DNA of 54,240 bases. Source: an uncultured Planctomyces sp. (GTDB taxonomy: Bacteria > Planctomycetota > Planctomycetia > Planctomycetales > Planctomycetaceae). A model generated the notes under the pieces. The model ran no database searches, had not been told where the DNA came from, and was given only the letters and a program-made list of their open reading frames with translations. Made by a program: the position numbers and the translations under genes. Positions 14,185-45,412 of this stretch are shown piece after piece (position 1 is the stretch's first letter; each line of letters begins with the position of its first letter). The stretch lies in the NCBI GenBank assembly GCA_937904325.1, contig CALGTK010000276.1:1-54240 (forward strand), given 5' to 3'.

Positions 14185-14627
14185 CGGAAGAGCTTCCTGA
14201 TGCGAGATGGGCTTGTGGAACTGTCAAAACGTCGATTCGGCTCGTTGATCGAAGAGTGGAGATGGGAATTCCCGATCGGAAGCAAAATCAATGGCAGCGT
14301 GAATTTGAACGAGAATTTCTAAAAGAGTCCGTCACTCTAACAGACGATTTCTCCGATTTCAGCCCGGAACCACATTCATCGCCAAGCAAGTTCAATGCCA
14401 CGGAAGACATTTCCTGACAAGCTGCCACAATACTTATGAAATTGCGTCGCCCCCCGTCGAGTCAAATCAGCCCGACGCTCGTTACAGACGGACGGTTGCA
14501 TGGTTGGCATTCTTCCAGAGAACACCCTGCTATCATGCCACTACTATATAATCTCCGTCGGCACTGCCGCGACGGCCGTTTTTCAGATTATGTCAGCCTG
14601 AACATCCCAACCGAGGACGCTCGCTTG
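14185..14627. other. Divergent intergenic region
   Basis: About 440 bases between the zinc-ribbon gene (minus) and the CorA-type gene (plus), so it should carry both promoters. A frame in phase with the CorA gene stays open back to 14436, but the added residues (MKLRRPPSSQISPT...) do not resemble CorA, and the chosen start at 14628 gives the usual length. I saw no hairpin resembling a magnesium riboswitch and no clear promoter pair. Confidence 0.4.
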
Positions 14628-15578
14628 ATGACTTCTGCGCTCGCTTTCAACTTTGAAAACCGCGTCGACCGGGAAATCGGCCTGGAAGAGGTTTCGGACG
14701 CTCTAAACAATGGCGAATTCTGCTGGGTGAATCTGACAGCAGACGATGTATCCAAGCAGGCAGAGTTTCTTGATCTTTTCGGCGTGACCGATGAAGAAAC
14801 TCAAACGCCTGGAACGATTCGGTTCATCGCTCAGAAAGACTGCATCCAGTTCACACTGATCGACACGAGCCTGGCAAATGACCAGTTCGTTAAATCGCCG
14901 GTAGCGATCTACTTCGGCCAGAAATTCATGCTGTCAGTTCACAAGAAACCTGCCGCGTTTGTTGCCGGCACCTTGATTTCGTGCCGCGAAAACTTCCGAA
15001 ATATAGCACTTTCACCGGGATTTCTGTTGTTCGAACTCGCCGATCATCTCGCGCAGAATTACACGAGTCTGGTCCAGTTGCTGGCGACGAAAACTCAGGA
15101 AATTGAGTCCGAACTCTTTAACGAGGACAATGACGATCGCATCTTCGCTGTTGTCGCCAGCCTGATTCGTTCGATTCTTGAGTTCTACAAGGTGATCGTG
15201 TCTTCACGCGAGGTGCTGCACGATCTGGCGACTCGGTTGTCACCGTTTATCCCCGAAACGACGCAGCCATATCTGGAAAAGAAAGCCGCACTGCTGGACC
15301 GGCTTAGCGTCGACGTCACGACCGAGCGTGAAATTCTGTCTGAATCTCTGCATCTATACATGGGGATTACCACCCACCGGACGAACGCACTGCTTTCACG
15401 TTTGACCGTGGTTGGAACTTTGTTTCTGCCGCTCACGTTCATCGCAGGAGTTTACGGGATGAATTTCCGAGTGATGCCGGAGCTTGACTGGAAGTACGGA
15501 TACCTGACATTCTGGGTTGTTGCGGGTTCGACGGTGATCGGCCTGATTGCCTACATGCAACGGAAAAAATGGCTTTGA
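14628..15578 (+). CDS. CorA-family divalent metal transporter
   Basis: Membrane channel/transporter of 316 residues, the same length as the classical CorA. A large N-terminal cytoplasmic domain is followed by a long helix region (LLATKTQEIESELFNEDNDD). Two C-terminal membrane helices come last. The first ends in the signature VYGMNF, and the loop that follows (VMPELDWKYGY) matches the periplasmic acidic loop. It is expected to move Mg2+, possibly also Co2+ or Ni2+. The start at 14628 is preceded by GAGGA about eleven bases upstream; a longer reading from 14436 adds 64 unlike residues. No regulatory leader was recognised. Confidence 0.88.
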   Translation: MTSALAFNFENRVDREIGLEEVSDALNNGEFCWVNLTADDVSKQAEFLDLFGVTDEETQTPGTIRFIAQKDCIQFTLIDTSLANDQFVKSPVAIYFGQKFMLSVHKKPAAFVAGTLISCRENFRNIALSPGFLLFELADHLAQNYTSLVQLLATKTQEIESELFNEDNDDRIFAVVASLIRSILEFYKVIVSSREVLHDLATRLSPFIPETTQPYLEKKAALLDRLSVDVTTEREILSESLHLYMGITTHRTNALLSRLTVVGTLFLPLTFIAGVYGMNFRVMPELDWKYGYLTFWVVAGSTVIGLIAYMQRKKWL

Positions 15579-15867
15579 TCGTCAAGGCGTGCCGATTATT
15601 TGGATGAAGACGGGTTTCGTCGAGAATCATCTCCAATCAAAGCGACGAACAGCGCTGCGGTAGGCCGAGACCGATTTTCGCCGTAAGTTACTTGCAGAAC
15701 ATATTTTGCAAGCGTAAAACTTATACTTCACATAGTCGCTTACCATCACTGGTCTGGCGACTGAAGCTTACCGAATGACGCATCCGCCACCGCACGCGTT
15801 GCGACAGATTTCAAACATGAATTGACGTTTGAAACTCTTTTCCAAGGCTGTGTCAGACAATTTTTTC

Positions 15868-15884
15868 TGGAGGAAACCACAATC
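15868..15884 (+). promoter_or_regulatory. Strong ribosome-binding site in front of an ATC start codon
   Basis: TGGAGGA (15868-15874) lies eight bases before ATC at 15882-15884. No ATG, GTG or TTG stands at a suitable distance in the infC frame. The nearest in-frame ATG is inside the conserved domain (NLPRMNDG), too far downstream to be the true start. This site therefore decides the start of infC. Confidence 0.75.
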
Positions 15885-16421
15885 AGAAGACCTCAGTTTG
15901 CTCAGCCCGTGCAGACAAATCTGCCACGGATGAATGATGGAATTCGGATCACGCCTATCCGCGTCGTCGATCAGGATGGCGAAATGCTTGGCGAAATGGA
16001 GACTCACAAAGCCAGGGAACTCGCGATTGATGCCGGGTTGGATCTTGTCGAAGTGAGCCCGGGGGTTCGTCCGCCGGTTTGCCGAATCATGGACTTCGGG
16101 AAGTCTCAGTACGAGAAGCAGAAGAAGCTTAAGAGCGGTGCCAAACAGCACTCCGTTCAGGTTAAGCAGATCCGTATGCGAGCGAAAACGGGCCAGCACG
16201 ACGTCGAAGTGAAGGTTCGGAAGGCTCGACAGTTTCTTGCCAAGAACGACAAGGTAAAGGTCAACGTTCTGTTCCGAGGGCGTGAAAATGCTCACCATGA
16301 TCGAGGCCGTGAATTGCTTCAGCAGTTCATCGATATGCTGGAAGGCGAAATTGTCGTCGAGCAGCCGCCACGAATGGAGAGTGGACGCGCCATGTCGACC
16401 ATCCTGGGACCTGCGACGTAA
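15882..16421 (+). CDS. infC: Translation initiation factor IF-3, with a probable AUC start codon
   Basis: IF-3 binds the 30S subunit, keeps it apart from 50S and checks the start codon. The N-domain contains [14 protein letters not shown] and the family signature [15 protein letters not shown]. The C-domain contains [18 protein letters not shown] and [12 protein letters not shown]. Reading from ATC at 15882 gives 179 residues, matching the 180 of the E. coli protein. In E. coli and several other bacteria infC starts with AUU, which lets IF-3 repress its own translation; AUC here would serve the same purpose. rpmI and rplT, the usual neighbours, do not follow; a convergent helicase gene does. 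A possible -10 (TATACT, 15722-15727) is visible but has no well-spaced -35. Confidence 0.95.
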
Positions 16422-16531
16422 CAGTCTGCAGCCGTCTTCTGAATTCAAGAAATCAACCCCGGGTCGCGTTGTGCGCCGACTTGGCCGCAGTTGAGCCCTG
16501 TCGGTTTGTACACAAGTCGTTGTGGACGTCT

Positions 16532-18406
16532 TCAGATGCGCTCTTCCCAGACCGTGTGGTACGCCCCGATAAACTCGAAATATTCGATCATCTTCGCGAA
16601 GAAATCGTTGCCGCCAACTGTCGCGCTGTCGCCGATGACGATGAGCTTTCGGCGGGCGCGAGTCAGCGCAACGTTCATCCGTCGTGCATCAGCAAGGAAT
16701 CCGATTTCGCCTTCCGGGTTCGAACGAACGAGTGAGATGATCACCGCTTCTTTCTCTCGTCCCTGAAACCCGTCGACCGTGTCGATCTCGACGCGTTCAT
16801 CCGGCGAGTTTTGCCGCAGCCATCGAACCTGTGCAGCGTATGGAGCGATGACCGCGATGTCCCGTCCTCGTAACCCCGCATCCTGCAACTCTGTAATCTT
16901 GCGAAGAACGAGCTCTGCTTCCTGGATGTTTCGCTTGCTGAGCCCGTCGGGTTCGAGTTCTTCGTCCCAGCCTGCACCGGCCGAATCGATAAAGGTGACC
17001 GGTTCGATCGTCACGAGTTGCTCATCGACATAATCCAGGTCGGTCAGAACGTGACCACTGACAGAACCATGCGACTGCAGAGTTCCGTCGTAAAACTGCT
17101 CCGAGGAAAAGTTCATGATCTGATCGTGCATCCGATACTGCATGTTGAGCCGTCGCGTCACTCGATCTCCGTAAACGCCGACCAGTCGCTCCAGCAAGCT
17201 GACTGCAAGCCCATCCTTTGCCGCCTGTTTCGAAAGAACGGTTGGTGGAAGCTGGCAGTGGTCACCGGCCAGGACCAGTCGATCAGCACGCAAAACCGGC
17301 ATCCAGCATCCGGGTTCTGTGCTCTGGCACGCTTCGTCGATCACGACGAGGTCGAAACGTCGATCACCCAGTAGTGACTCGTCAAGCGTCGTCGTAGCAC
17401 AAACAACGTTTGCGTTGTCGATGATCGAATCAATCGCCTGTTGCTCCAGCATTCGCACGTCAGCTTTCAACCGCTTCGCGTCCTGCCGCATTTCCCGTTT
17501 TGCACCGTGAACGGGTTTCGCACGAGTGAACTTGCCCGCCTGTCGAAACAGATTCTCCGCCTCACGCCGCATTTCGCGAATCAGGTCGGTCAATTCGTGA
17601 CGTGCAACTTGAGCATCAAGCGTGTGCTCGTGCAGTCGCTCGCTAACGCGTGCCGGGTGTCCCAGCCGCACAGCCTTCTGGCCAGCATCAACCAGCTTCT
17701 CAAGCAGATTATCGACTGCTGTGTTACTTGGTGCGCAAGCCAGAACTTTCTGCCTTTTAGAAATTGCCTGGCAGATCAGCTCGACGATGGTTGTCGTTTT
17801 TCCGGTTCCAGGCGGGCCATGAATGATCGCCACATCGGATGCCGACAATGCAAATCGGATTGCCGCCTGTTGCGACTCATTCAACTCGGTGTTGAACTGG
17901 CAATCTTCCTGATTCTTAAAAGACAGTTCCCGTTGTCCAAGCAGGATGTCGCGCAGTTCTTTCGTCCGGCCGCGCGCATCCTGAGCACGTTTGAGCGCGT
18001 TCAGCATTCGTTTTCGAGTGATCTCGTCGGGCGAAAGGTCGATCCGCAGGCGTTCGGCATCCGGATAGTCGTTCACCGCAACCTGAATCGACTTACGACT
18101 GATCGAGGTCACGACTCCCTGGCAGGCATCACCGGACAAATCATCATTCGGCGTCAAAATGACGGGCGATCCGACACGCAGCCGATTCCACGGCAACTGC
18201 AACGTTCGGTTTCGCTTCACAAGCGTGATGAGGTATCGCCCGCCCAGTCCGGCATCCTCATCGGTTACGACAAGATCCAGCAGAGTTTCCCCCGATTTCT
18301 CCGCGTCAGGACCTTTCTGCCGCTGCCGCCGCTCATTAAGTCGTTCGGCCTCAGCTACTGACTCCAGATCGATCCAATCAGCCAGCCGTTGAAAATGCTC
18401 ATCCAT
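16532..18406 (-). CDS. SF1 (Upf1/IGHMBP2-like) DNA/RNA helicase
   Basis: ATP-driven helicase of 624 residues. An N-terminal domain (about 1-170) carries a barrel-type region (GRYLITLVKRNRTLQLPW, SPVILTP). The first RecA-like domain has Walker A GPPGTGKTT (197-205) and Walker B VVIDEACQ (near 357), then LAGDHCQLPPTVLS. The second domain has NMQYRMHDQIMNF, EIDTVDGFQGREKEAV and the final motif MNVALTRARRKLIVIGD. This is the set of the Upf1/IGHMBP2/Dna2-like group of superfamily 1. The full motif set suggests an active enzyme for DNA or RNA metabolism; the substrate is unclear. No nuclease or other defence gene lies beside it. It converges with infC. Confidence 0.9.
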   Translation of the reverse strand: MDEHFQRLADWIDLESVAEAERLNERRQRQKGPDAEKSGETLLDLVVTDEDAGLGGRYLITLVKRNRTLQLPWNRLRVGSPVILTPNDDLSGDACQGVVTSISRKSIQVAVNDYPDAERLRIDLSPDEITRKRMLNALKRAQDARGRTKELRDILLGQRELSFKNQEDCQFNTELNESQQAAIRFALSASDVAIIHGPPGTGKTTTIVELICQAISKRQKVLACAPSNTAVDNLLEKLVDAGQKAVRLGHPARVSERLHEHTLDAQVARHELTDLIREMRREAENLFRQAGKFTRAKPVHGAKREMRQDAKRLKADVRMLEQQAIDSIIDNANVVCATTTLDESLLGDRRFDLVVIDEACQSTEPGCWMPVLRADRLVLAGDHCQLPPTVLSKQAAKDGLAVSLLERLVGVYGDRVTRRLNMQYRMHDQIMNFSSEQFYDGTLQSHGSVSGHVLTDLDYVDEQLVTIEPVTFIDSAGAGWDEELEPDGLSKRNIQEAELVLRKITELQDAGLRGRDIAVIAPYAAQVRWLRQNSPDERVEIDTVDGFQGREKEAVIISLVRSNPEGEIGFLADARRMNVALTRARRKLIVIGDSATVGGNDFFAKMIEYFEFIGAYHTVWEERI

Positions 18407-43187: not shown

Positions 43188-43260
43188 GCCAGTGTAGCTC
43201 AATTGGCAGAGCAGCGGTTTTGTAAACCGCAGGTTGAGGGTTCGAGTCCCCCCGCTGGCT
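43188..43260 (+). tRNA. tRNA-Thr (anticodon TGT)
   Basis: 73 bases. The acceptor GCCAGTG pairs with CGCTGGC (one G-T). The anticodon stem GCGGT/ACCGC holds the loop TTTGTAA with anticodon TGT at 43221-43223. The T-arm GGTTCGAGTCC is canonical. CCA is not encoded. Confidence 0.97.
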
Positions 43261-43400
43261 TTTCTGCACTTAGATCAATTCCTGTTTACTTCACATTCGA
43301 TTTCGAAGTCGCTACAGTCCCGCGGCTTTCGAAAACTGCGAGTGCGGTGCGTCCACCGTCCATTGTGGTCGTGGAGTGATTTGAGTCGTGGTTAACCGGG

Positions 43401-43482
<82 letters not shown>

Positions 43483-43530
43483 TTACGTTTTGGTGATTGA
43501 TTTTTACGTTTACATTTGTTTGGATTTGTT

Positions 43531-43601
43531 GCGGGTGTAGCTCAACGGTAGAGCCCCAGCCTTCCAAGCTGGTTGTGAGGGTTCGATTCCCTTCACCCGC
43601 T
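43531..43601 (+). tRNA. tRNA-Gly (anticodon TCC)
   Basis: 71 bases. The acceptor GCGGGTG pairs with CACCCGC. The anticodon stem CCAGC/GCTGG holds loop CTTCCAA with anticodon TCC. The T-arm GGTTCGATTCC is canonical. CCA is not encoded. Confidence 0.97.
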
Positions 43602-43675
43602 CTCGGATTTTTGGGAATGTGGTTGGCAAGGCCACAAAGCTGAGGCTTGCCAAGCGGCCCATGACCTTGGGATTT

Positions 43676-43751
<76 letters not shown>

Positions 43752-43867
43752 GTGTAGGCAAAATTGCCTGCGGTGGTTTTTCTGGCAGGGCAGACTCACT
43801 GGGTTCAACAGTCCGTGCGGCCCGCGCTTCATGTACCTGGTTAAGTTAAGGACGGGAACTAGTTCCA

Positions 43868-45067
43868 ATGGCCAAAGACACTTTTAATCGTAAAGACAAG
43901 ACGCACGTCAACGTGGGGACGATTGGCCACATCGACCACGGTAAGACGACAACAACAGCCGCCCTGCTCGCTGTGCAAGGGGTCAAGGGACTCGCGGAAT
44001 TCAAGAGCTACGCCGATATTGCCAAGGGTGGTACCGTTCGCGATGACACCAAGACAGTTACTATTGCTGTGTCGCACGTCGAGTATGAATCAGAGACTCG
44101 CCACTACGCTCATATCGACTGTCCGGGGCATGCTGACTATATCAAGAACATGATTACTGGTGCTGCCCAGATGGATGGGGCGATCCTGGTTGTCTCCGCC
44201 GCTGACGGCCCGATGCCGCAGACTCGTGAGCACATTCTGCTCGCTCGTCAGGTGAATGTGCCGGAACTGGTTGTCTTTCTTAATAAGTGTGACCTCGTCG
44301 ACGACGAGGAGTTGCTTGAGCTGGTTGAGATGGAAGTTCGTGAACTTCTGTCCAACTACGGATTCGAAGGCGACGACATTCCACTCGTGAAGGGGAACGC
44401 TAAGGGTGCACTTGACAACCCGGACAAGGAAGAGTTCTCAAACTGTATCACAGAACTTGTCGCCACCCTGGATGCTCATATACCGGCCCCTGAACGTATG
44501 ACGGATCGTCCGTTCCAGATGGCTGTTGAAGATGTCTTCTCTATCGAAGGTCGCGGAACAGTCGCGACCGGCCGAATCGAGCAAGGCATCGTAACTGTTG
44601 GTGAGAAAATTCAGATCGTTGGTCTTGCCGACACACAGGAAACAACCGTCACTGGCGTTGAAATGTTCAATAAGACGCTCGATTCGGGCCAGGCAGGCGA
44701 TAACGTCGGCATCCTGCTTCGCGGAACCAAGAAGGACGACATTCAGCGAGGCCAGGTCCTTGCGGCACCGGGGACTATTAACCCGCACACGAAGTTTGAA
44801 TGCGAAGTTTACGTCCTGAGTAAGGAAGAAGGCGGCCGGCATACGCCGTTCTTTAGCGGCTATCGGCCACAGTTCTACTTCCGGACTACCGACGTAACCG
44901 GTTCTTCGAATCTCCTTGGTGGGGCAGAAATGTGCATGCCGGGAGACAATGTTAAGCTGGAAGTCGAACTGGGCAAGCCAATCGCCATAGAAGATAATAG
45001 CCGCTTCGCCATCCGTGAAGGCGGTCGAACTGTCGGCTCAGGCGTTGTCACAAAGATTATTGAGTAG
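43868..45067 (+). CDS. tuf: Elongation factor Tu
   Basis: EF-Tu, 399 residues, carries aminoacyl-tRNA to the ribosome as a GTP complex. The GTP-binding motifs are GHIDHGKT (G1), DCPGHADY (G3) and NKCDLVDD (G4). Domains 2 and 3 follow with [17 protein letters not shown] and the closing [15 protein letters not shown]. The G1 loop reads [13 protein letters not shown] rather than the commoner GHVDHGKTTLTAA, a mild variation. It is preceded by four tRNA genes and followed by a strong terminator at 45085-45120. ATG at 43868 begins [10 protein letters not shown], typical of the family. Confidence 0.98.
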
Positions 45068-45084
45068 TCATCAGTTAACCTCCG

Positions 45085-45120
45085 AGCCTGCAACGCCGTT
45101 GCAGGCTTAGTCTTTTTTAT
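45085..45120 (+). terminator. Rho-independent terminator after tuf
   Basis: A perfect ten-base stem AGCCTGCAAC / GTTGCAGGCT (45085-45094 with 45098-45107), a three-base loop GCC, then TAGTC and TTTTTT (45113-45118). It separates the tRNA-tuf transcript from rpmG and the genes that follow. Confidence 0.93.
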
Positions 45121-45161
45121 TGAGTGTCTCGGATTCATAGAGCTGGAAGCGAGATTTAGTA

Positions 45162-45314
45162 ATGCGAGAGTACGTCTGGCTTGAATGCACTGAAACTGGA
45201 CTCCGAAACTATCGGATTCAGAAAGAAACTCGCGGCACAGAGCGGTTGGAACTTAAAAAGTACTGCCCGAAGCTACGCCGCCATACGATTCACAAAGAGT
45301 CGCGCAAGAAGTAG
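45162..45314 (+). CDS. rpmG: 50S ribosomal protein L33
   Basis: Short protein of 50 residues: it begins MREYVWLECTETGLRNYRI, continues with QKETRGTERLELKKYCPKLR and ends RHTIHKESRKK. This is bacterial L33, a small large-subunit protein. Zinc-binding L33 has two CxxC pairs. Here only Cys9 (CTET) and Cys35 (CPKL) remain, one from each pair, so it probably does not bind zinc. The start has GGAAGCGAG upstream. It lies between the tuf terminator and tRNA-Trp, in the usual rpmG-secE position. Confidence 0.95.
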   Translation: MREYVWLECTETGLRNYRIQKETRGTERLELKKYCPKLRRHTIHKESRKK

Positions 45315-45338
45315 CGAAGTCGTGACGCCTGTGTGAGT

Positions 45339-45412
<74 letters not shown>

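Follow-up and report, generated by a model that had tools for sequence, protein, structure and literature searches.

The infC gene of this planctomycete raises two linked questions: at which codon the translation of IF-3 begins, and whether that codon allows IF-3 to limit its own synthesis. The window (the whole stretch of DNA that was analyzed, 54,240 nucleotides) is one contig of a 488-contig planctomycete draft genome, and the named assemblies closest to it belong to Planctomycetaceae, Fuerstiella being more distant. The product is confirmed as IF-3 by its match to the NCBIfam infC model TIGR00168 (174.4 bits, where the cut-off is 60, covering positions 3-168 of the 170 in the profile) and is unexceptional, with 44% identity to E. 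coli IF-3. The initial annotation placed its start at ATC 15882 behind a strong TGGAGGA site, giving a protein of 179 residues. Both elements are present, the 5′ sequence reading ...TTTTTTC TGGAGGA AACCACA ATC AGA AGA CCT CAG..., with 7 nt between TGGAGGA and ATC, or 8 nt when counted from the end of GGAGG. Pairing of GGAGG amounts to -12.2 kcal/mol in the anti-Shine-Dalgarno scoring done here, and the frame runs for 179 codons, ATC included, up to the stop codon at 16419-16421, yielding a product whose model match lies well above the cut-off.

Table 1. Features of the infC region of the window, with apparent ACG-starting infC loci of other planctomycete families
Feature	Position or loci	Strand	Remarks
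Palindrome CTTGCA-N10-TGCAAG	15691..15712	.	Within 45 bases of the infC leader that are nearly invariant in five genus members
Leader hairpin TTTCAAAC-N10-GTTTGAAA	15809..15834	+	Genus relatives show G-C in place of A-U
Rejected start TTG	15822..15824	+	In frame, in loop of leader hairpin, without Shine-Dalgarno site; no coding constraint upstream of ATC
Shine-Dalgarno TGGAGGA	15868..15874	+	GGAGG at 15869-15873; last G 8 nt from ATC
infC coding sequence	15882..16421	+	179 codons plus stop, ATC start; TIGR00168 174 bits, matches to PF00707 and PF05198
AUC start codon	15882..15884	+	ATC or ATT in 19/19 clade members; codons 2-16 change only synonymously in genus
Rejected start GTG	15909..15911	+	Codon 10, without Shine-Dalgarno site
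Rejected start ATG	15930..15932	+	Codon 17, first IF3_N residue; Ile, Val or Leu in many relatives
Apparent ACG infC loci, family f43	L072, L100, L128, L161, L294		Conserved within family
Apparent ACG infC loci, family f24	L065, L083, L088		Conserved within family
Apparent ACG infC loci, family f63	L069, L186, L298, L299		Conserved within family
Apparent ACG infC loci, family f16	L177, L194		Conserved within family

The accompanying claim that no ATG, GTG or TTG is in reach holds only in part. Three such codons are in frame: TTG 15822, 20 codons upstream of ATC 15882, at which the open reading frame finder begins, and GTG 15909 and ATG 15930, 9 and 16 codons downstream. A Shine-Dalgarno site was sought before each of the three and found at none, and in that sense the claim stands. 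The 5′ region of infC was then compared among five members of the genus by pairwise differences. Between ATC and ATG 15930 there are 20 synonymous and no non-synonymous differences, the portion ahead of GTG 15909 contributing 10 and 0, and in the same frame upstream of ATC the N/S ratio is 0.76, accompanied by indels. Read from these alignments, coding constraint starts at ATC or within about one codon of it, a substitution pattern that argues for translation beginning at ATC. A start at GTG 15909 or ATG 15930 would leave ATC untranslated and give an IF-3 of 170 or 163 residues from a canonical, in-frame codon, and members of the clade of the window often have Met as the first residue of the domain. 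We nonetheless regard it as very improbable, since neither codon follows a Shine-Dalgarno site, codons 2-9 and 10-16 undergo synonymous change only within the genus, and other planctomycetes have Ile, Val or Leu at the Met position, hence no start there, and retain the Shine-Dalgarno and ATH pattern. Initiation at TTG 15822 or farther upstream, which would make ATC an internal Ile codon, agrees with the finder's choice of first start codon and with a frame that is open for 55 codons ahead of the domain. That reading is barely credible given that the TTG lacks a Shine-Dalgarno site and sits in a hairpin loop, that the frame upstream of ATC has no coding constraint and carries indels in the genus, and that a close upstream in-frame stop in 50 relatives leaves no ATG, GTG or TTG to use.

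Conservation of the start at ATC extends well beyond the genus. On the IF-3 tree the window falls in a clade of 19 members, of which 11 have ATC and 8 have ATT behind the Shine-Dalgarno site, and none ATG, GTG or TTG; the IF-3 domains of L013 and L018 are identical, yet the two genes start at ATC and ATT, respectively. A survey set of 186 distinct Planctomycetota infC 5′ ends was assembled in which each candidate codon was scored on 16S-tail pairing and spacing, and for about 40 loci the automatic call was overridden or left undecided by judgment from the printed codons. With these calls, 135 of the 176 callable starts are ATC (65), ATT (51), ATA (6), ACG (12) or CTG (1), and the remainder are TTG (20), ATG (13) and GTG (8), the other members of the 186 being undecided. 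Independent of the judged calls are 50 loci in which an in-frame stop close upstream leaves no ATG, GTG or TTG before the domain, so that these genes must start at another codon. As a frame control, near-cognate codons at the spacing expected of a Shine-Dalgarno site were counted in all three frames: 130 of 186 loci have one in the reading frame and 7 and 25 in the two others, more than chance would give. As a gene control, rplT starts at ATG in all 29 planctomycete genomes considered, among them that of the window and eight with an ACG infC; judged by this one control gene, the weak start is a property of infC that does not run through the genome. The conserved ATC, ATT or ATA that the initial annotation had proposed to look for by alignment is present as ATC or ATT throughout the clade, and ATH, ACG or CTG is found in about three quarters of the phylum. 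Genus substitutions, clade conservation, the phylum survey and the frame control lend strong support to a start at AUC, and this comparative sequence evidence confirms it as the codon at which translation of infC in the window would begin.

The trait is not universal. About one quarter of planctomycete infC genes apparently start at ATG, GTG or TTG, including, in a few genera of the same family, three at ATG (L033, L063, L112) and one at TTG (L045), and the weak start is therefore dispensable in some lineages. Entire clades with GTG, TTG or ATG starts occur in families f34, f15, f36, f64, f13 and f70, a distribution that suggests several losses of the weak start codon. On the IF-3 tree, built with FastTree on 166 columns and containing many weak branches, the start is counted to have crossed from one codon class to the other at least 13 times and to have changed codon at least 48 times.

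How might a start at AUC serve regulation? The strong Shine-Dalgarno site would hold the ribosome on AUC, where the ordinary initiator tRNA, with anticodon CAU, would pair with two codon bases only. When IF-3 is abundant, the mismatched initiation complex would be ejected and infC poorly translated; when IF-3 is scarce, the AUC complex would survive and more IF-3 would be made. The initiator tRNA of the genome itself (L261) has the normal CAU anticodon, so that AUC, like AUU in E. coli, would mismatch it at the third position. A special initiator tRNA reading AUC is ruled out by the same observation. PMC5472188, citing Butler 1986/1987 and Sacerdot 1996, describes IF-3 as destabilizing initiation complexes unless the codon is AUG, GUG or UUG, a property that infC exploits for itself, and refers to work in which the feedback on E. 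coli infC was proven. Rejection of AUC by IF-3 with consequent self-limitation, drawn by analogy with E. coli and Streptomyces, is the best explanation of the start codon, and it agrees with the recurrent exchange of one IF-3-disfavored codon for another. We consider it highly likely that infC starts at AUC and that IF-3 limits its own synthesis by rejecting this weak start. An alternative is that the AUC start is real and merely keeps IF-3 synthesis low, with no IF-3-dependent feedback; a weak start alone could fix a low level, and the clades using ATG, GTG or TTG manage without such feedback. This appears improbable, for a weaker Shine-Dalgarno site would be a simpler route to low expression and yet the infC site is strong, the ongoing change among AUC, AUU, AUA, ACG and CUG suggests selection on rejection by IF-3 and not on a fixed strength, and in E. 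coli the feedback is established as noted above.

Several observations concern the tRNAs themselves. L261, on contig C78, has the anticodon stem CGAGG/CCTCG, in which A29-U41 stands where the first of three G-C pairs is usually found, and an apparent C1/C72 mismatch. The window carries a tRNA cluster at 43188-45412 comprising Thr(TGT), Tyr, Gly(TCC) and Thr(GGT), followed by Trp, and a tRNA-SeC (L270) is also encoded in the genome. Recurrent GGGCTGATAACCC sites in relatives were considered as tRNAs and ruled out.

Apparent starts at ACG extend the range of codons. ACG lies at the proper distance from a strong Shine-Dalgarno site in 5 of 6 genomes of family f43, all 3 with a match in f24, 4 of 4 in f63 and both loci read in f16, and the following codon is mostly GCN or one for Ser or Thr. 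At L072 and L194 in-frame stops leave no ATG, GTG or TTG. The start of L075 (family f21) is ambiguous between ATT and ACG, and that of L097 (family f61) is apparently CTG. By these sequence criteria five planctomycete families apparently start infC at ACG, which requires five changes on the IF-3 tree, an approximate count given its weak branches. To our knowledge ACG, a second-position mismatch, has not been described as a natural infC start. A literature search for ACG infC found no paper among open-licence papers, and as far as could be searched these starts are new. Model mRNAs with the infC context have been made with aug, auu and acg for E. coli in vitro work, in which an mRNA termed as being without initiation codon barely formed 70S complexes (PMC8266586). 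We read that mRNA as the acg version, in which case natural use of ACG would be surprising. On balance we find it fairly probable that the infC start of Planctomycetota is selected for rejection by IF-3, whichever codon provides it, with repeated moves among AUC, AUU, AUA and CUG and apparently to ACG in five separate places of the tree.

The leader upstream of the start contains two further elements. The palindrome overlaps a possible promoter, TTGCAG-N17-TAAAAC (15692-15720), which we infer from its sequence, and is probably a promoter or operator element; it occurs as a single copy in the genome, so that no regulon can be read from it. In the hairpin, compensatory changes affect 4 of 8 pairs, and 90% of cells are paired compared with 82% in shuffles, a comparison of only five sequences. 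Neither element was seen by eye in other genera, Rfam gave no match on the infC leader, and a scan of it for sigma-70 promoters and terminators returned nothing useful.

The neighbors of infC are a corA-like gene upstream and a convergent gene for an IGHMBP2-family helicase downstream. rpmI and rplT do not directly follow infC, and the sole rplT is on contig C376. Separation of infC from rpmI-rplT (window 14436-18406) is seen in the genus and also in G008 and G009, and rplT lies about 1 kb downstream of infC in other family members, for example G006, G012, G014 and G018. Linkage as thrS-infC-rpmI-rplT does not define the start-codon mechanism. The draft genome also holds a second IF-3 gene (L001 1255-1755, contig C172), which likewise starts at ATC, two codons after an in-frame TGA. 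Its product groups with family f5, with 72% identity to L103 and 50% to the IF-3 of the window, and each genus close to that of the window has a single IF-3 copy. A regulated paralogue was rejected on the grounds of this affinity and of the single copy in surrounding genera; contig C172 is probably contamination.

These results correct the start of an essential gene, and a gene finder restricted to ATG, GTG and TTG would misplace the infC start in most planctomycetes. They also indicate that the infC start-codon trick would reach through Planctomycetota, a phylum for which a literature search of open-licence papers found none that connects infC and its start codon. The exchange of AUC, AUU, AUA, ACG and CUG for one another amounts to a natural mutagenesis experiment on the codons that IF-3 tolerates, and the clades with ATG, GTG or TTG represent natural losses that invite the question of what has taken the place of the feedback.

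Among known systems, E. coli infC is alike in being the same gene, in its TTGGAGGAATAAGGT-ATT arrangement with GGAGG at 8 nt spacing, and in deviating from AUG at the third base. The codon is AUU there and AUC here, autogenous control by IF-3 is known there and would by analogy operate here, and the E. coli gene order thrS-infC-rpmI-rplT contrasts with an infC that stands alone in the window. The dsg gene (infC) of Myxococcus xanthus was reported in 1994 to start at AUC, and a 2020 arXiv survey by Gvozdjak and Samanta, cited in PMC9845219, is said to list infC among genes preferring non-AUG starts. The initial annotation had taken AUC for a different rare codon serving the same logic; it does differ from the AUU of E. 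coli, but it is not new, since Feeney et al. 2017 (PMC5472188) give ATC as the infC start of Streptomyces, next to the ATT of E. coli. Streptomyces thus offers the same gene with the same start codon in another phylum, where repression by IF-3 was measured on sigR (GTC) and not on infC (PMC5472188). In S. aureus infC starts at AUA, as seen by start-site ribosome profiling (PMC13009471), and in Listeria at ATT, reported as experimentally confirmed (PMC13068326); these are likewise AUH-type starts that differ in the codon used, with experimental support there and sequence comparison here. Seen beside these systems, the AUC-starting infC of planctomycetes is a further case of the known infC start-codon trick.
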